DNA of 64,000 nucleotides from Canibacter zhuwentaonis (GTDB lineage: Bacteria; Actinomycetota; Actinomycetes; Actinomycetales; Microbacteriaceae). The notes under the pieces were generated by a model that did no database searches, was not told the DNA's origin, and saw only the letters and a program-made list of their open reading frames with translations. This document shows positions 5,249 through 15,276 of the stretch, in pieces. Made by a program: the position numbers and the translations under genes. Position 1 is the first letter of the stretch; every line of letters starts with the position of its first letter. The DNA lies in NCBI RefSeq assembly GCF_018531145.1, contig NZ_JAHDSZ010000002.1, positions 62,001-126,000 on the forward strand, read 5' to 3'.

Positions 5249-5299
5249 TTGCAGATGAGATTAATTCTTATACTATAATAATGATAATTAATATCAATT
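5249..5299 (+). promoter_or_regulatory. Promoter overlapped by a Fur-family-like 7-1-7 palindrome
   Basis: A perfect -10 hexamer TATAAT (5274-5279) lies 19 bp after a possible -35 TTGCAG (5249-5254). Just downstream, over the expected transcription start, is TGATAATTAATATCA (5282-5296), two 7-bp half sites around one base with one mismatch per arm. This is the geometry of Fur/Zur/Mur-type operators. The transcript would encode the ABC operon beginning at 5321, so metal-dependent repression is a reasonable inference. The gap 5092-5248 holds no gene that I can support; it is rich in GCGGAT. Confidence 0.65.
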
Positions 5300-5320: not shown

Positions 5321-6919
5321 ATGCTTAGAAGAGACAAGCAGCTACTGCGCGGTGCGATCGCCCTCGTAGTGTGCTTTAGTCTAGGTGCGTGCTCACAGCA
5401 GGGCGCAGCCCCATCCGTTAATTCCAAGTTGCGAGTTGTTACAAGCACCCAGGTGCTACAGGATATTACTCGCAATATCGCTGGGGATAAAGCCGAAGTT
5501 ACTGCGGTTGTTCCGGCGGGGGGTGATCCGCAAAATTATGATCCCAGTATCCGCGATGTGAGGGCAATTAGCGGGGCGGATGTTGCGCTCACAAACTATG
5601 AGCAGTACGAGGATCCGCGGGTTAATGCCGCGCTCAAAACCCACTTGCGCGCCGGGGCTGCCCGCGTTGATTTAGTGGAGGAGTCGGTTAAGCACGCCGC
5701 AAACGTGATTCCGCTGATTGAGGATCAGAGCCTCGACACCGTTTGGCTCGGGCTCGCCTCACGCGGCGCATCCAAGAGCCTACCGCACGACGCGGTCACA
5801 GAAATACAGGTGAGGGGCGTTAAAGGCCCGGGGCGTGCGAGCGGATACATAACCGGCAGTTTTGGCAAGCCGGAACTGTTTTTCAATTCGGCAGACGGTT
5901 TTGATGAGGGTAGCGACTACGTTGCTGACACTGTGCGGCTGCCGGTAACAGCGCACACGCACATGAGCTGGGCTTTCACAGAGCCGGGCATTTACGAGCT
6001 TAATATTAACGCGCGCTTGCGCGAGAGCGCAGGTGCGCCGCCGCAGAAAATAGGCTCTGGGCGGCTTGTTTTTGCGGTGGGAGTGAGTCCGTATCAGGCC
6101 GTTAGCGAGACTCGCGAAACGATTATTGATGCCGGTCACGCAGATATTACAGCTGATTTGTCGATAATGAAACTGCGGCTGAGCGCGGAGGGTGGATCTA
6201 ATCACGCGCACTCGCAGGGCGATTCGCATGCGCACGACACCGCGGCAAAACTGCAGAATGCGGTGATTGCGGTGCCGAGCAAGACCCTGCACAGTGTGCC
6301 GCAGGATGAGGGGTATAGCTTCCTGGGTGAGCCTGGCGCGCAGGTGTATCAGCTGCCGCAGGCCGTTTTGGCGCGGCACAAGCACGGTGAAATAGATCCG
6401 CACCTGCTGCACAGCGCGCACAACGCTCGCAGTTATGTTGCGGCGATTCGTGATGCGCTGATCAAAGCTGATCCGCAAAATGCTGTGACATATCGCGTGA
6501 ATGCCGATAAGTACAGCGCGAGACTTGCCACGCTTGACGAGCAGATAACCACGCAACTGGCCGGCGTGCTTGAGTTGAAACGGGTGTTGATAACATCGCA
6601 GAACAGCCACGCATACTATGCGGCGGCGTATGGGTTGCAGGCAGCGGGTTATGTACGGCAGAGCCAGGGTGATGATCCATCGCTAAAAACCTATAAACAG
6701 CTTGTACAAACCGTTCGAGACAGCGGGGCGAACGCGGTTTTTGCGAGCACCCAGGTTGGGCGTGACGTGCAGGATGCTGAGCTGCTGGCCAGACAGGCTG
6801 GTATCACCGCGTGTGTGCTACGGGATCAGACCCTAGATGGCGAGATTCAGACTTATGAAGCGCTGATGTTGGACAATACTAAAAAAATTGTTGCGTGTTT
6901 AAATGGAGCTGGAGGATAG
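5321..6919 (+). CDS. Lipoprotein solute-binding protein of an anchored-repeat ABC transporter, with inserted surface domain
   Basis: 532 residues from ATG 5321 (GGAGG at 5314-5318; an in-frame GTG lies at 5312). The signal peptide ends in a lipobox LGAC with lipidated Cys24. Residues ~37-115 and ~355-532 form the two lobes of a cluster A-I (ZnuA/PsaA-like) binding protein: VTSTQVLQDITRNIAGD, GGDPQNYDPS, then EIDPHLLHSAHN and NSHAYYAAAYGL. Between them, ~128-348 is an insert related to the surface domains of the next genes (VRGVKGPG, HTHMSWAFTEPGIYEL, FLGEPGAQVYQLPQ), plus a His-rich loop (~293-306). This matches the architecture I know as the anchored-repeat ABC substrate-binding protein (TIGR03772-like). 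The His of the usual DPH(S/E)YEP motif is Gln here. A metal ligand is likely but unproven. Confidence 0.85.
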   Translation: MLRRDKQLLRGAIALVVCFSLGACSQQGAAPSVNSKLRVVTSTQVLQDITRNIAGDKAEVTAVVPAGGDPQNYDPSIRDVRAISGADVALTNYEQYEDPRVNAALKTHLRAGAARVDLVEESVKHAANVIPLIEDQSLDTVWLGLASRGASKSLPHDAVTEIQVRGVKGPGRASGYITGSFGKPELFFNSADGFDEGSDYVADTVRLPVTAHTHMSWAFTEPGIYELNINARLRESAGAPPQKIGSGRLVFAVGVSPYQAVSETRETIIDAGHADITADLSIMKLRLSAEGGSNHAHSQGDSHAHDTAAKLQNAVIAVPSKTLHSVPQDEGYSFLGEPGAQVYQLPQAVLARHKHGEIDPHLLHSAHNARSYVAAIRDALIKADPQNAVTYRVNADKYSARLATLDEQITTQLAGVLELKRVLITSQNSHAYYAAAYGLQAAGYVRQSQGDDPSLKTYKQLVQTVRDSGANAVFASTQVGRDVQDAELLARQAGITACVLRDQTLDGEIQTYEALMLDNTKKIVACLNGAGG

Positions 6920-6922
6920 CCT

Positions 6923-7915
6923 ATGTGGCATCGATACGGGCAGTATATACGTCAGGTAGCAGCCGCGATTGGGCTGTTGGCAACGCTTTTAATATCGCCG
7001 CTTGTGGCAGCTGGTGGGTTGTTTCACGCAGAGGATAACGATCCCGGGCTGGAGCAGGAGATCGACGCGGCTGAGCAGCTGGGCGATGGCAAAGTTGTGC
7101 GGGATGACGGGCACGTGGATTTTGGTCCCACAACCGGGCAGGGCGCGCCGCTACTGCTGATCCGCGATGATAGCGGGGATGCGCCACTGTGGCGTAAGCC
7201 AGAGGATGTTGTGCTGTACGCCAAAGATAATGCGAAGACTATGACTCCGAGTGATGCTGCATACAGCTTTATTGGTGCGGCCGCGGGCGAGCCGGTGTGG
7301 GTGTTGCCACAGACGCAACAGGTGGGCACTGTGTGGCCAGGTTGGAACACGCAGGAGCCGGCTCTGCTGGCAGTTCTTGGAGCGGGCGTGAAAATGGATG
7401 TTCTGGCGGTGCGCGGTCCGGGCGAGGTTAGTGTTTACCTGCAGTCTGGCAACTTTAGCGAGCCAGATTTGCTGTGGAGCACAACGCAAGAAAAGCTCAG
7501 CTCGGTGTGGATAGAAAAGAACTCTCATGTGCACGCGAACTGGGTTTTCACCAAGCCGGGCGCTTATGCAATAGATGTTGCCTTCCAAATGCAGATGGCT
7601 GACGGATCAACACAACAGGCAACTGGCACGCTACAGTTTGCTGTTGGCGATGAAACGGATCCGCTAACCGCGTTCACAGCAACCGGGCAGCCAGAACTGC
7701 CTGTCGCACAGCAGAGTGAGCCGGGCGCGCAGGATGCTCCGGCGCAGGCTGGTATACAGTCGCTTGTTGTTGTGCTGATTGCCGTTGTTGGCGCTGTTTT
7801 GCTGGGCGCGATTGTGCTTATTCTGGTTGTGCAGGCGCGCGCGAAAAAGCTCGCAAAAGCCGAGTTTGAAATCGGTGCGCAAACCGCCGTGGGAGGCGAT
7901 TTGAGTGCTAGTTGA
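6923..7915 (+). CDS. Membrane-anchored surface protein with one anchored-repeat domain
   Basis: 330 residues, starting 3 nt after the binding-protein stop. An N-terminal signal sequence (about 9-30, IRQVAAAIGLLATLLISPLV) is followed by one surface domain, ~60-245: GHVDFGP, YSFIGAAAGEPVWVLPQ, VWPGWNTQEP, VRGPGEVSVYL, HVHANWVFTKPGAYAIDV and a closing FAVGDE. After a Pro/Gln-rich linker comes a C-terminal membrane helix (~280-305) and a basic tail. There is no LPXTG sortase signal, so anchoring is by the helix. Family knowledge: such proteins are encoded next to anchored-repeat ABC transporters in actinobacteria, and their role is not established. I infer capture or presentation of the transporter's ligand at the surface. 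Confidence 0.8.
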   Translation: MWHRYGQYIRQVAAAIGLLATLLISPLVAAGGLFHAEDNDPGLEQEIDAAEQLGDGKVVRDDGHVDFGPTTGQGAPLLLIRDDSGDAPLWRKPEDVVLYAKDNAKTMTPSDAAYSFIGAAAGEPVWVLPQTQQVGTVWPGWNTQEPALLAVLGAGVKMDVLAVRGPGEVSVYLQSGNFSEPDLLWSTTQEKLSSVWIEKNSHVHANWVFTKPGAYAIDVAFQMQMADGSTQQATGTLQFAVGDETDPLTAFTATGQPELPVAQQSEPGAQDAPAQAGIQSLVVVLIAVVGAVLLGAIVLILVVQARAKKLAKAEFEIGAQTAVGGDLSAS

Positions 7916-8660
7916 GCTGCAAAAAGTAGCTGTTAGGCTCGCAGATCGCACGGTTTTGCACGATGTTAATATGCGCGCGGGCGCGGGTGATTATGTTGCT
8001 CTAATAGGCCCTAACGGCGCGGGCAAAACAACCCTGCTGCGCAGCATTTTAGGGCTGCAGAAAATAGCTGCGGGCAGCATTCTGTTCACGTCACAAAACG
8101 GCAAGCAGAGCACAAGACCCCACTCGGCAAAAATCGGTTACGTGCCGCAGCGGCATGATTTTGCGTGGGATTTTCCAATCAGCGTGAGCGAAACCGTGAT
8201 GACGGGGCTGTACGCGCAGCTCGGGTTTTTGCGCCGGGCAACTCAAGCGCATTACAAAAAAGTGTATGCGGCGCTGCAGCAGGCTGAGATCACAGATTTA
8301 GCGGATCGCCCGGTGGCAGAACTTTCCGGCGGGCAGCGGCAGCGCGTGCTGGTTGCACGCGCACTGGTCAGTGACCCTGAGCTGCTACTGCTTGACGAGC
8401 CTTTTACCGGGCTGGATATGCCCACGAGTGACGGGTTGCAAACACTGTTTGGCGAGCTAGCAAAAACCGGCAAAACGGTGATTATGACAACGCACGAGCT
8501 AATCGGCGCCAAAAACTCTTGTTCACACCTGTGTTTACTGCGTGGCACCGTGTACGCGATGGATACCCCTGCCGCGCTTGCCAACAACGCGCGAGCCTGG
8601 CAAGAAACGTTTGAAATTGCCAGAGAGCACCAGCTGTTGGCCGCGTTGGGAGTTAAATAG
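7905..8660 (+). CDS. ABC transporter ATPase of the anchored-repeat (ZnuC/MntB-like) system
   Basis: 251 residues with all ABC motifs: Walker A GPNGAGKTT (~36-44), Q-loop GYVPQRHDFAWDFP, signature LSGGQRQRVLVARAL, Walker B LLLLDEPFTGLD and the H-loop His in IMTTHEL. The GTG start at 7905 overlaps the preceding gene by 11 nt and has GGGAGG (7891-7896) 8 nt upstream. It energises uptake with the permease that starts in its stop codon. Its closest family resemblance is to the metal-type importers of cluster A-I. Confidence 0.93.
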   Translation: MLVELQKVAVRLADRTVLHDVNMRAGAGDYVALIGPNGAGKTTLLRSILGLQKIAAGSILFTSQNGKQSTRPHSAKIGYVPQRHDFAWDFPISVSETVMTGLYAQLGFLRRATQAHYKKVYAALQQAEITDLADRPVAELSGGQRQRVLVARALVSDPELLLLDEPFTGLDMPTSDGLQTLFGELAKTGKTVIMTTHELIGAKNSCSHLCLLRGTVYAMDTPAALANNARAWQETFEIAREHQLLAALGVK

Positions 8661-11419
8661 TGCCGTCAATTATTGATTTTATAGCGGATCTAACAAACAG
8701 TGATCTGCAGTTTTTAGCGCGCGCCCTGGCGGTTGCTGTTGCCTCGAGCATTGTGTGCGCGGTGCTGGGTTGCTACGTGGTTTTACGCGGTATGGCGTTT
8801 ATCGGTGACGCTGTTGCGCACGCGGTTTTTCCCGGGCTTGCAATAGCCTTTGTGTTGCAGGCTAATTTGCTTATTAGCGGAGCTCTCGCGGGAATTGTAA
8901 CCGCCGCTCTGGTGGCGCTTTTCTCGCAGCATCCGCGCCTTAAAAATGACACTGTGATCGGCGTGCTGTTTTCCTTCGCGTTCGGTTTGGGGGTTGTTAT
9001 TATCTCTTTCGCGCCGGGATACGCCGGCAGCCTGCAGCAGTTTTTGTTCGGCTCGATAACCTCCGTAACCCTGTCAGATGTGATTACGGTGGCGGCGATT
9101 GCGCTTGCGCTGTTGCTGCTGCTCGCGCTGATCCATCGCCCGCTCGTGCTTGCCACGCTCGATCGTGAGCTGGCGCTCGCTGCGGGTGTGCGCGTTGGTA
9201 CAATTGAGATTATTTTGCACGTTGCCGTTGCCGTTGCCGTTGTTATTTCCGTGCAGGCCATTGGCAACGTGCTGGTGCTGGCGCTGCTGATAACGCCAGC
9301 TGCAACCGCCCGATTACTAACCAGCAAATTTGGAGTTATGATGACAATCGCCCCTGTTTTCGGTATTTTTGCCGCCGTAACCGGAATGTATTTTTCTTGG
9401 GGGTATGGTCTGCCCGCGGGCGGATCAATAGTGCTCGTTGCCACCGCAATGTTCTTTATAGCATTTCTACTTGCGCCAAAACACGGTGTTTTGCGGGCGG
9501 CAGCAGCGCGGCGAAAGAACTTGAACCCCGGTGTTAAAAAGTCGTGCACCGCTGTTGTCGCGGGCGCGGTTGCGGTCTGTGTTTTTGCGATCGCAACAGT
9601 TGGTGGCGCGTTGTCGGCTGCTCCCGTGGCGGCACAAACGCGGGAGGATGAGATTAGGGTTATTGGCTCTGTGCACGCCGACGCGGTTTCGGCGTACGTT
9701 GATAAGGGTAAGCTCGTGTTGGCAGGCGCTGCCGATGTTGATACTGACGGCGATGGCGTTATTGACCGGGGATCTCGCTTAGATCCCGGCAAAACGGTTT
9801 TTCATCTGGCATCACAAGCCAAACAGGAGCTGCCAGATGACGCAGACTTCGAGTTTTTAGGAAAGCCGGGTGAAAATGTTTGGTTGGCGCCACAGCAGCA
9901 GGATCAGAGCCTTATCTGGTTGGGTTTTAACACCGAGGATGAGTCTGTTGTCACGGCCGTTGGCGAGGGCGCAATTGCGGTTAAGTTGAAGTCTGTGAAA
10001 GGTCCCGGAGCGCTTGAGATTTTCCAGCACGGTATAACCGGGCCGGATCGCCTGTTCAGTTCTGTAACCGAGCTGGTGCCGTGGCAGATGCACGCGCCGC
10101 AGCACGCGCACGCTAACTGGGCGTTTACTAAAGAGGGAGTTTACTACCTCACCTTTGAAATGAGTGCCAAGATTAAAGGTGAGCAGCAGAGTGCGAGCGC
10201 AAGCTACGTGTTCGTGGTTGGTGAGTTGCCCGATAACTTAGCTGATTTGTTTGTAGCGGATGGTGCGCCAAAGCCCGATAATGGTGGGGATGAATCCGGT
10301 GCTGATCCTGTTGTGCCGAACGTAGATCATGCAAATCATGATACTAGCCCGGCGCAGCCGGATCCGCTGCCAGAAAAACCGGCAGATGAGCAGCCGCAGG
10401 CATCAGTTCCGTCACCTGTGCAGCCGCAACCAACCGCGCCTGACGCGCAATCGCAGCTGCCCAGCGCAGTGGCAACTGAGGTGTGCTCTCCGAGTTCGGA
10501 CTTCACCCGTGGGCACATCGACCTGTTTAACGTCACGGCGGTCGGGCGGGTAGCAACTCTGCAGCTCAAAGAGGATGTTACAGGGCGTCACATTTTGCGC
10601 GAGCCTGAGGGAGTTGTTGTGAGCGTTGGCGAGCACGCGCGCACGAGCATTCCCGCTGGATCACCCGGAGCGGGCAGCGGATACGTACTGCCCGTGACGC
10701 AGCGTCACGATTTACCGTGGCCAGGGTGGGACACCAACGATACTCGCGGCAGCAGCTACACCGACGTGAAAATCAGTATTGAAAGCGTGCGTGGCCCGGG
10801 CAGTGTGCACCTTTTCACGCAGAACAGTTTTGGCGGGGTGCGCAGCCTGCTAACGCACGGCGGAACTGGCTTGCCGGGTGTTATTCACGAGCCGCGCCCT
10901 GCGCACACGCACGCGCAGTGGGTTTTTACGCACCAGGGAGTGTACCAGTTGCGCGCGAGCGCGCAGCTCACAGACCCCAGCACGGGAGCCACAATTCACA
11001 CGGCAACTCGGACTTACACCTTTAGGGTTGGTGATGTTTCGCTGGCGGATGCGTTGTGCGGCATTGACGGATCTGCCGGGACTGCTGATAGTAGGCGGGT
11101 TGCCAACGAGATTCCTGTTTATAACGAGACTGCGCAGCAGGTAAAGTCGGGCGCGCAGGCTAAAAAAAATAGCGTGGCTAAAAAAGCGGCTGCTGTGCAG
11201 CTTGGCGCAAAAGCTGCTGAGGCGCTTAAAAAACAGGGGATTAGTCCTGAGGAGTTTGCGCAGCTGAGCCCTGCCGAGCAGCAGGCTATTCTTGACCGGC
11301 TGAACGTGCAGACAGGGATTACAACTTGGCAGGCCGCCGGGTTGGGCGCGCTGGGGATGCTCATTATTGGCGGGATAGTTTATGGCACGGCGCAGATTCT
11401 TAAAAGGTATAGGGTGTAG
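8660..11419 (+). CDS. ABC-3 family permease fused to a two-domain anchored-repeat surface protein
   Basis: 919 residues from a GTG overlapping the ATPase stop (TAGTG). Residues 1-275 are a complete metal-type ABC permease (GMAFIGDAVAHAVFPGLA, DRELALAAGV, LLITPAATARLL). Residues ~293-325 resemble a signal peptide: KK, a hydrophobic helix, then SAAPVAAQ. After this come surface domain 1 (~335-530; GKPGENVWLAPQ, VKGPGALEIF, HAHANWAFTKEGVYYL), a Pro-rich linker (~545-605), surface domain 2 (~612-790; PWPGWDTND, VRGPGSVHLF, HTHAQWVFTHQGVYQL), a helical Lys/Ala-rich region, and a final membrane helix (~886-908) ending KRYRV. The frame is continuous, so I see no stop that would separate two genes. 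Family knowledge places permease and wall protein in separate genes; the fusion is the odd point. Confidence 0.85.
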   Translation: MPSIIDFIADLTNSDLQFLARALAVAVASSIVCAVLGCYVVLRGMAFIGDAVAHAVFPGLAIAFVLQANLLISGALAGIVTAALVALFSQHPRLKNDTVIGVLFSFAFGLGVVIISFAPGYAGSLQQFLFGSITSVTLSDVITVAAIALALLLLLALIHRPLVLATLDRELALAAGVRVGTIEIILHVAVAVAVVISVQAIGNVLVLALLITPAATARLLTSKFGVMMTIAPVFGIFAAVTGMYFSWGYGLPAGGSIVLVATAMFFIAFLLAPKHGVLRAAAARRKNLNPGVKKSCTAVVAGAVAVCVFAIATVGGALSAAPVAAQTREDEIRVIGSVHADAVSAYVDKGKLVLAGAADVDTDGDGVIDRGSRLDPGKTVFHLASQAKQELPDDADFEFLGKPGENVWLAPQQQDQSLIWLGFNTEDESVVTAVGEGAIAVKLKSVKGPGALEIFQHGITGPDRLFSSVTELVPWQMHAPQHAHANWAFTKEGVYYLTFEMSAKIKGEQQSASASYVFVVGELPDNLADLFVADGAPKPDNGGDESGADPVVPNVDHANHDTSPAQPDPLPEKPADEQPQASVPSPVQPQPTAPDAQSQLPSAVATEVCSPSSDFTRGHIDLFNVTAVGRVATLQLKEDVTGRHILREPEGVVVSVGEHARTSIPAGSPGAGSGYVLPVTQRHDLPWPGWDTNDTRGSSYTDVKISIESVRGPGSVHLFTQNSFGGVRSLLTHGGTGLPGVIHEPRPAHTHAQWVFTHQGVYQLRASAQLTDPSTGATIHTATRTYTFRVGDVSLADALCGIDGSAGTADSRRVANEIPVYNETAQQVKSGAQAKKNSVAKKAAAVQLGAKAAEALKKQGISPEEFAQLSPAEQQAILDRLNVQTGITTWQAAGLGALGMLIIGGIVYGTAQILKRYRV

Positions 11420-11512: not shown

Positions 11513-11635
11513 ATGGCTTTAGATAGCTTCAGTGTTGAGGTTAACCTGCGGGTTGGTCAGAGCAGCGACGCAAAAAGGTTGGCGCAGCCTGGGGCGTATG
11601 ATTTTGCTTGCCCTTGCAATAGACTTGCTGTATGA
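11513..11635 (+). CDS. Small ORF (40 aa) translationally coupled to the nuclease-helicase gene
   Basis: ATG 11513 is preceded by GAGGAAA (11504-11510). The 40-residue product begins MALDSFSVEVNLRVGQ and ends ACPCNRLAV. Its TGA (11633-11635) overlaps the ATG of the next gene as ATGA, the classical coupling arrangement. I do not recognise the protein. It could be a real small partner, a leader peptide that sets translation of the large gene, or a chance ORF. The next gene has no other obvious ribosome-binding site, which favours coupling. Confidence 0.45.
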   Translation: MALDSFSVEVNLRVGQSSDAKRLAQPGAYDFACPCNRLAV

Positions 11636-14600
11636 GGTATCAGCCTAATCGAGTTATTTTATCGCCGAGCGATATTAATAGTTTTATGCTGTGCGAGTTT
11701 GGGTTTTTGCGGCGCTTCGATAAATTGCTTGGGCGAGATGTTGAGATCCCCGCAGAGCCTCGTAACGAGGTGCTTGAGTACACCAGCAAGCTAGGCTTTA
11801 AGCATGAGGAAGAACAGCTGGCGGAGTATCGTAAGATCTACGACACGGTTGTTGATATTAGTGAAGAGTGCGGTGATGGGAAAGGCGAAGCTGATTTAGA
11901 GCTTGCACACGAAACGACCTTAGCTGCTCTTAAAAACGGGGCAGATGTTGTCTATCAGGCTGTTTTCTACGATTCAGCGGCGCAGGCGGATACGAAACCT
12001 GGGCGTCTAAGGTTTGGTTTTTTAGGCTACGGGGATTTTCTCGTGCGCCAGTCAGACGGTTCATATCAAGTGCAAGACACTAAATTTTCGCGTAAAGCCC
12101 GCGCGAGCGCACTGTTGCAGCTCGCAGCCTACGCTGAACAGCTAGCGCAAAACGATATCGCGGTGCATCCGCTGGTTGCGCTTTTGCACGGTGATAAGAG
12201 CGTTACAGAGCATAAGCTGTATGATATCAACGGCGTACTTGCACAGATGAAATCAAAAGCCTACGCCGTATTGCAGGAGCGCTATAACGCCTGTGATGCA
12301 AACGGCGCGCGGCGCGCGGCGCCTCCTGTTGATATTAGCAATCCCGCAATTAGAGCGTGTCTCGAGTGTGAGTTTTGTTTAGCGAAGATGCGTCTTAAAA
12401 ACGATATTGGATTAATTGCTGGAATTACGCACAGCCAGCGTAAAATCCTATTGCAGAATGGCTTTACAGATATTAACAAACTTGTTAGAACACAAGCAAA
12501 AGACGGCTCAGCTATTAAAACAGCGGAGGAAATAAGGGCTGCGTATCAGAAGATTGCGGGTAATATTAGCTATGCAGAGTTTGAGAGGTTGGTGTATCAG
12601 GGCTACGGGCAGAGTTTGCGTACCCCTGAAGGCGGGATTTTGTGGAAGCCTTTTTCAGACGCTATGGCAAATCTGATCGTGCCGCAAACGGTCGCAAAAG
12701 ATGTTTTTGTAACCTTTGGGCACAACGATCACCTTCCAATTTCAAACAGCGCAGGTGATCCTGTCGATGTGGGCATTACCTATTTTATGGCGATTAGTCA
12801 GGCGGATGCTGTAGCCCATAAACTAGAGTTTAAAACCGCGTGGGCTTTTGATTTTGAGCAAGAGAGAGAGCTTTTTTACTGGCTAATGAAGGCGCTAGAG
12901 GAGCAGCTTAGAAAATCCACTGAAAGCCGTGTTTTCTACTTCGGAGGCGATGTGCTCCGTAGACTAAAAGCTTTGAGCGAGCGCCACAAAATAGGAGAGA
13001 CGGAATTAAATAAATGGCTTGTTACGAACAAACTGGTAGATCTGAGAAAGATCGTTGTGAATACTTTTTATATAGGGGTTGAAAAATACGCTATTGAAAA
13101 TTTGAAAAATGTGTTTAATCCAGCGAACACTGCGGAGGTTATCGAGCCGCTGCAAATAACCCTGCCAAAGTTTAATAAACTTATTGAGCTGGAGGCGGGC
13201 AGCGCTGAGTATAACTCTCTGAGGCGCGAGCTGGAAAATGAACTGCTTGCAGAAAACAAAAGCCTGCTAGAACTGCATAATTGGTTACTGCAGGCAAAGC
13301 AGGGCGGCAGTGAAAATTGGCTCATTGACACGACTGCACAAGCAAACATTATGACGCCTGTGAAAACACTGATCCCTAAAACGGAGACTGATAAGACCGT
13401 TAGGCGTTATAGAGAGCGCGCATTAGAGACGAATTCGGCTGATGAAGCTATTGCTTTTGCAATGATTGCGGAGTCTTTTAAATTCTATTCCAGAGAAGAA
13501 GAAGCACAATCTATGCAGCGTCGCGAAATGCTTGAAACAGGGGTTGAAAACTGGTCTGAATCAAGCGATGCGATTGTAATTGATGAGGCTAAAACGCAGC
13601 AGAACGGGGCTGCTGCCGCGTCGTCGATTATAACAGTTTATTTTGATAAAAAAAGCAGTAAGTATAAAAAATACGGTGAGGGCAGGGATATCGATCTGGT
13701 TTATGATCAGCCAGTGCCGGGAGCAAACCAACACACACTCAACGGCAGATGTCTTAAGAGAGCGAAAATTAGTGCTATTGCGGAGGGTGTTGCTGAAATT
13801 AAAGTTCCTAGAGGCGACAAGATTCTATTTGCGCCGCGCGCAATTTTGCCAGCAGATAATATTCCCACAGTTATTCTCAGTAAAGCGGTGGATTCGTGGG
13901 CAGTTAATCTGAATGACAGCCTTGATAAGGGGGCTGTGCAAGATGCCGGATATGAGTTGTTGGTGAGAAATTTACCGCGCACTAAGGACAAAAAAGGTAT
14001 TGCACAGCAGGGAAGTGATGAGTATGCGCGTTTTGAACAGGGCGCAGATGATCCTAAAATTGCCGCCATCACGGATGCTGTTTTGCGCCTTGATAACTCA
14101 GTGTTGCCGGTGCAAGGACCCCCAGGAGCTGGCAAAACTTTTGTTTCGGCAAGGGTTATTAGAAACCTTGTGCTTAAACACGGTTGGTGTATTGGAGTTG
14201 TTGGGCAGTCGCACGCTGTTGTTGAAAACCTGCTAAACGGCGTTGTTTCTGCAGGTGTGCCGAGGGATCAAGTTCTCAAAAAGAGAGACGCTAAAACGTG
14301 TAAAGAGGCAAAGTTTAAGAATTTTAAAGACGAGAAGGATGACCTTGTGAAAGAGCTGCACTCGTTAAAAGATGCTGGGCGCGGATTCGTTGTTGGCGGA
14401 ACCGCATGGAATTTCGCGGGGCGGACGCTTTTTTCGGTTAAAGAACTTGATTTGTTGGTTGTTGACGAGGGCGGGCAGTTTGGTTTAATTTCGACTCTGG
14501 CGTGTTTGACCTCTGCTAAAAACCTGTTGCTCGTTGGCGATCCGCAACAATTGCCGCAGGTTTCTGTTGCTAAACATCCGCTATCAATTGAGCAGTCGGC

Positions 14601-15276
14601 GCTTGGCTGGTTGGTTAATAACGCGGATATAATTCCTCCTGAACGGGGCTACTTTTTGGACACTAGCTGGCGTATGAATGAGAAACTGTGTGACGTGGTT
14701 TCTCGCATTAGTTACGGCGGTAAGCTGAAGGCTGCTAAGCGTGCGGATCGCGCAGAAATTAGCGGCTGGTACGAGGCGGGGAGCTATTGGCATCCGGTTG
14801 AACACTCGGGAAACTCGGTTTCTTCTGTTGCAGAGGCCGAAGCTGTTGTGAGACTCTGCCAGGATGCCCTGCAAAAAGCGCGAGTGGTATCTGTAGAGGG
14901 TAACTCACAGGCGATTACCGAAGCTGATATTATTGTTGTCACCCCTTTCCGGGCGCAGGTTGATTTGGTGACAGAAAAGCTGATCGAGGCTGGTATTGAG
15001 AATATCAGAGTTAATACGGTGGATAAGTTTCAAGGGCAGGAGGCGCAGATTTCCATTGTGACAATGGCGGCGTCTGAGGTCTATGAAAACTCGCGCGGTA
15101 TCGGATTTTTGTTGAGCCGTAACAGGCTCAATGTTGCGCTCAGCCGTGCAAAATGGTCTGCGCACCTCATTAGCAGTCGCGAGCTGGGTAATACGCAACC
15201 GGTAACCGCCGAAGATATTGTTAATATATCCGGATATATTACTGCCCAAAGCAGTGCGAAGGAGGTTATTATTTAG
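11632..15276 (+). CDS. RecB-like nuclease fused to SF1 (Dna2/UPF1-like) helicase, TM0106-type
   Basis: 1214 residues. The N-terminal ~280 hold a PD-(D/E)XK nuclease signature: GYGDFLVRQSDG (~133-144), QVQDTKFS (~148-155) and QLAAYAEQL, followed by a Cys cluster CLECEFC (~243-249) that may hold an Fe-S cluster or zinc. After a long middle region, the helicase has Walker A GPPGAGKTF (~830), a Walker B-like VVDEGGQF (~943), GDPQQLPQV, VNTVDKFQGQEAQ (~1127) and NRLNVALSRAK (~1165). This order (nuclease, then SF1B helicase) is that of the TM0106 RecB-like family. It acts on DNA ends or branched DNA; its precise role is unknown. Codon use is more AT-rich than in neighbouring genes. Confidence 0.85.
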   Translation: MRYQPNRVILSPSDINSFMLCEFGFLRRFDKLLGRDVEIPAEPRNEVLEYTSKLGFKHEEEQLAEYRKIYDTVVDISEECGDGKGEADLELAHETTLAALKNGADVVYQAVFYDSAAQADTKPGRLRFGFLGYGDFLVRQSDGSYQVQDTKFSRKARASALLQLAAYAEQLAQNDIAVHPLVALLHGDKSVTEHKLYDINGVLAQMKSKAYAVLQERYNACDANGARRAAPPVDISNPAIRACLECEFCLAKMRLKNDIGLIAGITHSQRKILLQNGFTDINKLVRTQAKDGSAIKTAEEIRAAYQKIAGNISYAEFERLVYQGYGQSLRTPEGGILWKPFSDAMANLIVPQTVAKDVFVTFGHNDHLPISNSAGDPVDVGITYFMAISQADAVAHKLEFKTAWAFDFEQERELFYWLMKALEEQLRKSTESRVFYFGGDVLRRLKALSERHKIGETELNKWLVTNKLVDLRKIVVNTFYIGVEKYAIENLKNVFNPANTAEVIEPLQITLPKFNKLIELEAGSAEYNSLRRELENELLAENKSLLELHNWLLQAKQGGSENWLIDTTAQANIMTPVKTLIPKTETDKTVRRYRERALETNSADEAIAFAMIAESFKFYSREEEAQSMQRREMLETGVENWSESSDAIVIDEAKTQQNGAAAASSIITVYFDKKSSKYKKYGEGRDIDLVYDQPVPGANQHTLNGRCLKRAKISAIAEGVAEIKVPRGDKILFAPRAILPADNIPTVILSKAVDSWAVNLNDSLDKGAVQDAGYELLVRNLPRTKDKKGIAQQGSDEYARFEQGADDPKIAAITDAVLRLDNSVLPVQGPPGAGKTFVSARVIRNLVLKHGWCIGVVGQSHAVVENLLNGVVSAGVPRDQVLKKRDAKTCKEAKFKNFKDEKDDLVKELHSLKDAGRGFVVGGTAWNFAGRTLFSVKELDLLVVDEGGQFGLISTLACLTSAKNLLLVGDPQQLPQVSVAKHPLSIEQSALGWLVNNADIIPPERGYFLDTSWRMNEKLCDVVSRISYGGKLKAAKRADRAEISGWYEAGSYWHPVEHSGNSVSSVAEAEAVVRLCQDALQKARVVSVEGNSQAITEADIIVVTPFRAQVDLVTEKLIEAGIENIRVNTVDKFQGQEAQISIVTMAASEVYENSRGIGFLLSRNRLNVALSRAKWSAHLISSRELGNTQPVTAEDIVNISGYITAQSSAKEVII

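Follow-up and report, generated by a model that had tools for sequence, protein, structure and literature searches.

Sequence profiles and structure prediction support a circularly permuted surface domain inserted in a ZnuA-like substrate-binding protein

Introduction

The locus analysed here raises the question of how the substrate-binding protein (SBP) of an ABC importer can carry the two halves of a surface domain in the order opposite to that in the surface proteins of the same operon, and of what this arrangement means for metal uptake. The window (the whole stretch of DNA analysed, 64,000 nucleotides from Canibacter zhuwentaonis) carries on its + strand a four-gene operon for a 532-aa SBP, a 330-aa protein, an ATPase, and a 919-aa permease fusion. 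According to the original prediction, made from the sequence of the window, the SBP contains the surface domain in circularly permuted form, with the lobes of the binding protein acting as the joint. The motifs that gave rise to this prediction lie where it placed them, in aa 126-350 of the 532-aa protein, corresponding to positions 5696-6370.

An orthologous cluster in C. diphtheriae is repressed by zinc and by Zur, with an SBP gene named 'anchored repeat ABC transporter, substrate-binding protein' (PMC6711530). The C. diphtheriae cluster, znuAECB-znuFG, resembles the operon of the window in having the order SBP, ZnuE-like protein, ATPase, permease, and its ZnuA resembles the window SBP in having the HxD and HxH motifs reversed (PMC12445094). 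At low zinc in C. diphtheriae, deletion of znuE has a severe effect, deletion of znuA has a modest effect, and ZnuE with three His residues changed to Ala fails to complement (PMC12445094). The His-to-Ala mutants still give zinc-dependent thermal shifts, so the motif is not proven to be a zinc site (PMC12445094). For C. diphtheriae ZnuA, a 2025 paper describes only the reversal of the motif, with 45 residues between its two parts, and the main text of that paper contains neither 'permut' nor 'insert' (PMC12445094). In the open PMC literature we found no paper on the permutation itself.

Results

The operon encodes a ZnuA-like SBP with a large insert between its lobes

The NCBIfam families of the four products are, in operon order, TIGR03772, NF038134, TIGR03771, and TIGR03770 (Table 1). 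The SBP scores 480.4 bits with TIGR03772 (anch_rpt_subst), for which the curated cut-off is 350.45, and the SBP of a genus-mate (locus L096 of genome G396) scores 387.3 bits. The gene neighbourhood is that of a TIGR03772 operon, with a TIGR03771 ATPase, a TIGR03770 permease, and surface-domain proteins adjoining. Pfam recognises two stretches of the SBP, both as ZnuA and as nothing else, and gives no match in the 330-aa protein. From a lipobox we take the SBP to be a lipoprotein. All 50 rows listed in a fold search with the window SBP are metal SBPs of cluster A-I type, with Z of 25.5-30.2; the best two rows have Z of 30.2, with rmsd of 2.3 and 2.2 over 265 and 255 aligned residues. The lobes thus have the two-lobed cluster A-I (ZnuA/TroA) fold, matching at Z 30 despite an insert of ~210 residues between them.

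Table 1. Coordinates of the operon, the insert, and the cleft-ligand positions in the window
Feature	Position	Strand	Basis
TGATAATTAATATCA, candidate 7-1-7 inverted repeat of Fur/Zur type, upstream of operon	5282..5296	+	read from sequence; exact TGATAATNNNNATCA match
Substrate-binding lipoprotein (presumed; SBP), ZnuA-like, 532 aa	5321..6919	+	TIGR03772; PF01297 in 2 stretches
N-lobe, ~residues 36-131	5426..5713	+	model and fold search
Residue 71, Q (first cleft ligand, H in 102/104 rows)	5531..5533	+	alignment
Second half of surface domain, placed first, residues 139-254	5735..6082	+	profiles, predicted secondary structure
HxH motif, HTH (H212, H214)	5954..5962	+	both His in 104/104 rows
Joint of old C end to old N end of domain, ~residues 255-266	6083..6118	+	secondary-structure pairing, junction measurement
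First half of surface domain, placed second, residues 267-348	6119..6364	+	profiles, predicted secondary structure
HxD motif, HAD (H273, D275)	6137..6145	+	both residues in 104/104 rows
His-rich loop HAHSQGDSHAH, residues 295-305	6203..6235	+	predicted disordered, pLDDT <50 at 291-306
C-lobe, ~residues 359-530	6395..6910	+	model and fold search
Residue 361, H (only cleft ligand kept; 104/104 rows)	6401..6403	+	alignment
Residue 427, Q (third ligand, H in 102/104 rows)	6599..6601	+	alignment
Residue 503, Q (fourth ligand, D in 102/104 rows)	6827..6829	+	alignment
ZnuE-like membrane-anchored protein, 330 aa, one unpermuted domain at aa ~56-245 (H64/D66, H202/H204)	6923..7915	+	NF038134, 184.7 bits
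ABC ATPase	7905..8660	+	TIGR03771, 283.4 bits vs cut-off 268.8
Permease (TIGR03770/PF00950) fused to two unpermuted domains (9662-10219, 10505-11029)	8660..11419	+	NCBIfam/Pfam

Sequence profiles match the insert as one rotated domain

We used a profile of 392 unpermuted domain rows, of which 391 come from 290 non-SBP ORFs in the window and the related loci and one, the ZnuE-like copy of the window, is the reference. Unrotated, the profile matches the window SBP in two pieces, columns 71-184 at residues 135-257 with 68.3 bits and columns 3-74 at residues 272-351 with 31.5 bits (file numbering, +3 relative to the 532-aa protein), and the two pieces overlap little on the profile. The second half precedes the first in 103 of 104 SBP rows by an automatic criterion, with the opposite order in 0 of 104; in the remaining row, L010, the halves are swapped too, as judged by eye, giving 104/104 (102 different sequences and 2 copies of others). 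An extra first-half piece that would make L010 an intermediate was rejected, its alignment falling in ordinary N-lobe sequence.

Rotation of the profile in 6-column steps, applied to 92 SBP rows and to 297-298 non-SBP proteins with matches, separates the two groups. With the SBPs, the mean best single-domain score rises from 67.5 bits unrotated to 104.7 bits with a start at reference residue 81; the best starts are reference residues 75-87, with means of 103.2-104.7 bits, and with starts at 75-81 a single match takes in 175-177 of 185 columns. With the non-SBP domain proteins, the score peaks unrotated, at a mean of 208.5 bits. The window insert goes from 68.3 bits for its best unrotated piece to 97-99 bits in one rotated match, with 97.4 bits in the 6-column series, and one rotated match of at least 150 of 185 columns covers 99 of 104 SBPs. 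In a control with 1000 shuffled SBP sequences, the rotated profile gives 10 matches with a maximum of 7.2 bits, vs. 98.6 bits for the window, and two SBPs of this genome that lack the insert give no match to the profile. Among 295 non-SBP domain proteins, 1 scores >10 bits better rotated, but was set aside as a candidate for a permuted domain standing alone: the match is partial (columns 55-184), and this protein carries domains in tandem, separated by a very short junction.

The TIGR03772 model itself carries the swapped order: its positions 123-225 are matched by the second half of the domain in the 330-aa protein, and its positions 231-305 by the first half of a permease-fused domain. NF038134 (choice-of-anchor M), run over the whole window SBP, gives 94.0 bits against a cut-off of 55, in two stretches that stand in reverse order. 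With the domain of the 330-aa protein as single query, the orthologous SBPs among the matches listed match its second half (~residues 73-187) first, and the first half, where found, ends at 76; some SBPs among the matches listed match the second half only.

Predicted structure has the same rotated order

AlphaFold2 models were made from 81-row alignments for the window SBP (pLDDT 78.6, pTM 0.57) and for the 330-aa protein (pLDDT 86.1, pTM 0.68, with ten-residue blocks of the domain at 88-98), and were compared by the order of secondary-structure elements, not by superposition. The domain of the 330-aa protein has 18 elements at residues 58-241; the SBP insert has 17, which were matched to them one to one by eye, with the second-half group first, and a short helix, 146-151, is the sole element without a counterpart of at least four residues. 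With the permuted pairing, secondary structure agrees at 149 of 180 residues, as compared to 51.7% for the best other rotation and 41.5% (sd 4.8) for the mean, and sequence identity between the window insert and the ZnuE-like domain is 53/180. In the SBP model, pLDDT falls below 50 in most of the first 33 residues, in the hinges at 132-137 and 348-358, in the loop at 291-306, and at 447-451; the placing of the inserted domain against the lobes is not fixed by the model, since its pTM is only 0.57. For the domain by itself, a PDB sequence search gave no worthwhile match (best E 0.63), a fold search gave a best Z of 6.0 with none at 8 or above and hence no firm fold relative, and Foldseek gave one row with E <0.001 (PAD1), with TM at most 0.25.

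We conclude that sequence profiles and the rotated order of predicted strands support the circular permutation that had been proposed, the insert being one whole NF038134 HxD/HxH domain. The proposal that the lobes act as the joint did not hold. The old N and C ends join inside the insert. The lobes are connected to it at the new cut, which lies in the domain loop after LPQ, between residues 131 and 135 of the 330-aa protein, and makes SBP residues 139 and 348 the new ends.

Both motifs of the HxD/HxH zinc-associated domain (PMC12445094) are present in the window insert, as H273/D275 and H212/H214. The insertion site lies directly before the second cleft ligand, H361. An SBP on contig C27 of the same genome has a His/Asp/Glu-rich stretch at the equivalent place, and in AdcA a His-rich loop, 120-136, precedes His140 at the same place as the insert (PMC7858048). 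The exit hinge, 6377-6403, reads HxHGEIDPH and adjoins the sole cleft ligand that is kept; its H355 is present in 104/104 rows and its H353 in 102/104, and this segment could provide metal with a stepping stone. We also considered, and rejected, microhomology at the site of insertion: the N-lobe strand 119-133 is the best lobe match to columns 60-74, yet its score is -0.5 (lobe mean -18.9, sd 6.3).

All sampled SBPs of the family carry the permutation

The rotated order in 104/104 sampled rows indicates that the permutation is family-wide, a standing architecture of an SBP family that already has a name, and is peculiar neither to the window protein nor to this genome. Among 396 sampled genomes of the phylum, 4 have the domain, of which 3 also have the SBP and 1 (G226) has the native-order domain alone, and none has the SBP alone; the pattern fits native order as the older state, in what is a thin sample of genomes. 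Tandem arrays of the domain are common: we measured 102 domain-domain junctions, most of them long (median 63 residues), and two of them, in Tessaracoccus and Propionibacterium loci, very short, extending 1-2 residues beyond the profile ends.

Three of four cleft ligands are lost in the lineage of the window

The cleft set at residues 71/361/427/503 reads HHHD in 102 of 104 rows, QHQQ in the window SBP, and QHTQ in genus-mate L096. The window SBP accordingly lacks the four-ligand set of cluster A-I, and what is new in the alignment is that in 2 of 104 rows three of the four canonical ligands of the cleft are gone (H71Q, H427Q/T, D503Q). Both of these SBPs keep H, H, H, and D at insert positions 212, 214, 273, and 275, and C498 and C526 are kept in 104/104 SBP rows. 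Four of five genomes sampled from the genus have the SBP, and two of these four retain the canonical ligand set. The SBPs of the window and L096 are 43% identical; Q71, Y96, H108, H125, L363, N428, D482, and Q503 are replacements common to both, and several cleft positions differ between them. A tree, used solely for this purpose, pairs the two with support of 100, both on very long branches, with a warning from the program about long rows.

Among positions at least 90% conserved in the other rows, the window SBP has changed 14/38 in the N-lobe, 31/76 in the C-lobe, and 8/57 in the insert, and L096 has changed 18/38, 35/76, and 13/57. In the other rows, the corresponding changed fractions have means of 0.047, 0.032, and 0.025 and maxima of 0.333, 0.308, and 0.207. 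The insert is also faster in this lineage (0.140 in the window and 0.228 in L096; other rows, mean 0.025, maximum 0.207), so the lobes are merely the more changed part. Upstream aldehyde dehydrogenase and MFS genes are common to the window, L102 (G396), and L103 (Leucobacter sp. OH1287), the latter two loci having been recognised by eye from sequence ends; the ligand change therefore most likely happened in place.

The operon partners are conserved, with changes in the permease

By a stricter count, over positions at least 95% conserved rather than the 90% used for the SBP, the window partners have changed 3/77 positions in the ATPase, 2/42 in the ZnuE-like protein, and 18/127 in the permease, where the changes include E96N, D222S, and D250G. 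These changes suggest that the whole importer, permease included, may have shifted substrate. A single reading frame at 8660-11419 encodes the permease, the two surface domains fused to it, and a membrane anchor at the C terminus. Elsewhere in the table of loci, the same permease-domain fusion is found only in Leucobacter sp. OH1287 (L012 and L103 being one locus); genus-mate L102 has lost ligands as the window has, but its permease is unfused. Downstream of the operon, 11632-15276 encodes a 1214-aa protein with matches to AAA/helicase-type domains.

A candidate Zur-type box and two further importers in the genome

The pattern TGATAATNNNNATCA, with at most one mismatch, has 40 matches in the genome vs. 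14 for the pattern read backwards. Three matches are exact: the one upstream of the operon, one 7 bases before the start of a gene for a 1068-aa choice-of-anchor M protein, and one at C4:1859-1873 (genome G000). A relative of the box with four mismatches precedes the C27 SBP gene, and upstream of the SBP genes in L102 and L103 the nearest box-like sequences carry four and five mismatches. We infer shared Zur-type control in this genome. The 1068-aa protein (L126:820-4026, C12 of G000) has two unpermuted domains followed by repeats, with a match to S-layer SlpA at 90 bits, below the cut-off; the repeats look to us like cell-wall-binding repeats.

The genome (1.41 Mb in 28 contigs) encodes two further ABC importers of the same class, each with SBP, ATPase, and two permeases, and their SBPs have canonical ligands. 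The importer on C27 adjoins the only Fur-family match of the genome, and the importer on C18 adjoins a gene resembling DtxR/MntR regulators, which we take to be an MntR-like regulator. Besides the operon of the window, the genome has another importer, which is probably for zinc.

Discussion

The explanation that we favour, to which as a whole we give a probability of about 0.8, has four parts: a permuted domain in an SBP loop, an origin of that domain in an array, a zinc relay, and a dismantled cleft. It starts from what is observed, namely the permutation and its spread, the ligand loss, the conservation of HxH/HxD and of the partners, and the shared upstream box. According to this explanation, the permuted domain occupies the loop of the ZnuA-type SBP that is His-rich in other zinc SBPs. 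A cut in one inter-strand loop, with the former ends of the domain linked to each other, would bring both new ends to the SBP loop, so that the domain would hang off the SBP with the two-lobed fold unbroken. The insert most likely arose from a repeat-long piece of a tandem array starting mid-repeat, with the second half of one copy followed by the first half of the next, a step against which the long median of tandem junctions counts. The operon would be a Zur-type-controlled part of a zinc-limited uptake system whose metal handling rests on HxD/HxH domains. With zinc as the presumed substrate, the HxD/HxH domains of the surface proteins, the ZnuE-like protein, the fused permease, and the SBP would relay zinc to the permease. 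In the lineage of the window, where the cleft site of the SBP has been taken apart, zinc handling would fall to the inserted domain and its ZnuE-like partner, the lobes being retained as a docking body for the permease.

Three other accounts of the insert were weighed, all of them improbable. Two separate inserts, or partial domains merely sharing motifs with the surface domain, would be compatible with an identity to the ZnuE-like domain of only 53/180 and with a first half that by itself scores just 31.5 bits; but the two window pieces adjoin each other on the profile and hardly overlap (71-184 and 3-74), a single rotated profile spans on average 175 of 185 columns, and the secondary-structure elements, 17 of 18 as matched by eye, follow in rotated order, and we regard this account as the least probable of all, with hardly any chance of being right. 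It is nearly as improbable that the halves pair in trans with halves of neighbouring domains, for example those of ZnuE, in the manner of a domain swap: partners would be at hand, as a ZnuE-like match of >170 residues is present in 80/80 related loci, but the monomer model folds the insert, with pLDDT <50 inside it only at 291-306 and otherwise at the hinges 132-137 and 348-358. A somewhat better, though still poor, chance attaches to the permuted order being ancestral and the order of the surface proteins derived. Every sampled SBP row has the permutation, as that would require; against it, G226 has the native-order domain alone and none of the 396 genomes has the SBP alone, and one rearrangement in one SBP family is simpler than many in surface proteins.

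The ligand-poor cleft leaves more room, since sequence by itself does not settle whether it means takeover by the insert, a new ligand, or decay. That the cleft has been rebuilt for another ligand rather than lost is a real possibility, although we would not bet on it: the replacements common to the window and L096 look more like a new site than like free decay, and the permease has changed as well, but common descent alone would give common residues, and the two SBPs are only 43% identical and differ at several cleft positions. We consider it unlikely that the SBP is decaying because other metal importers are present in the genome (on C27 by the Fur/Zur gene and on C18 by the MntR-like gene). 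Both of those systems do keep canonical SBP ligands and the full set of SBP, ATPase, and two permeases; however, the 532-codon frame is open, C498 and C526 (104/104) and HxH/HxD are kept, the partners are conserved, and a second species is in the same state. The specific proposal that the importer has given up its Venus-flytrap cleft, with the lobes docking and the permuted insert presenting metal together with the ZnuE-like and permease-fused copies, is itself tentative; on its own we hold it to be rather doubtful, if a little more credible than decay.

Comparison with known systems places the window SBP near several of them and apart from each. C. diphtheriae ZnuA keeps a canonical zinc site (H63, H317, H383), whereas the window SBP has lost three of four ligands (PMC12445094). 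The nearest functional parallel is AdcA of Streptococcus pneumoniae, which combines a cluster A-I zinc SBP with a covalently linked second zinc-binding domain that, as the authors speculate, may hand zinc to the cleft; the second domain of AdcA, however, is ZinT-like and C-terminal, neither inserted nor permuted, and its cleft domain is necessary and sufficient (PMC7858048). Circular permutation is also found in an ABC-transporter binding protein of Treponema pallidum, MglB-2 (Tp0684), where the SBP itself is permuted (PMC4990184); in the window protein it is the inserted domain, within an SBP of normal fold. The PsaA changes E205Q and D280N are amide replacements of cleft ligands comparable to D503Q of the window (PDB titles; PMC6450668), but are single laboratory changes, whereas in the window three ligands are gone. 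One cleft-ligand change need not kill transport, since D280N made PsaBC permissive for zinc import (PMC6450668).

The family provides a clean natural case of a whole domain circularly permuted to fit within another protein. In the lineage with the dismantled cleft, nature has set up an experiment on what the work in C. diphtheriae leads one to ask, namely why ZnuE outweighs the SBP for growth at low zinc and whether an HxD/HxH domain can feed the permease without a cleft site.
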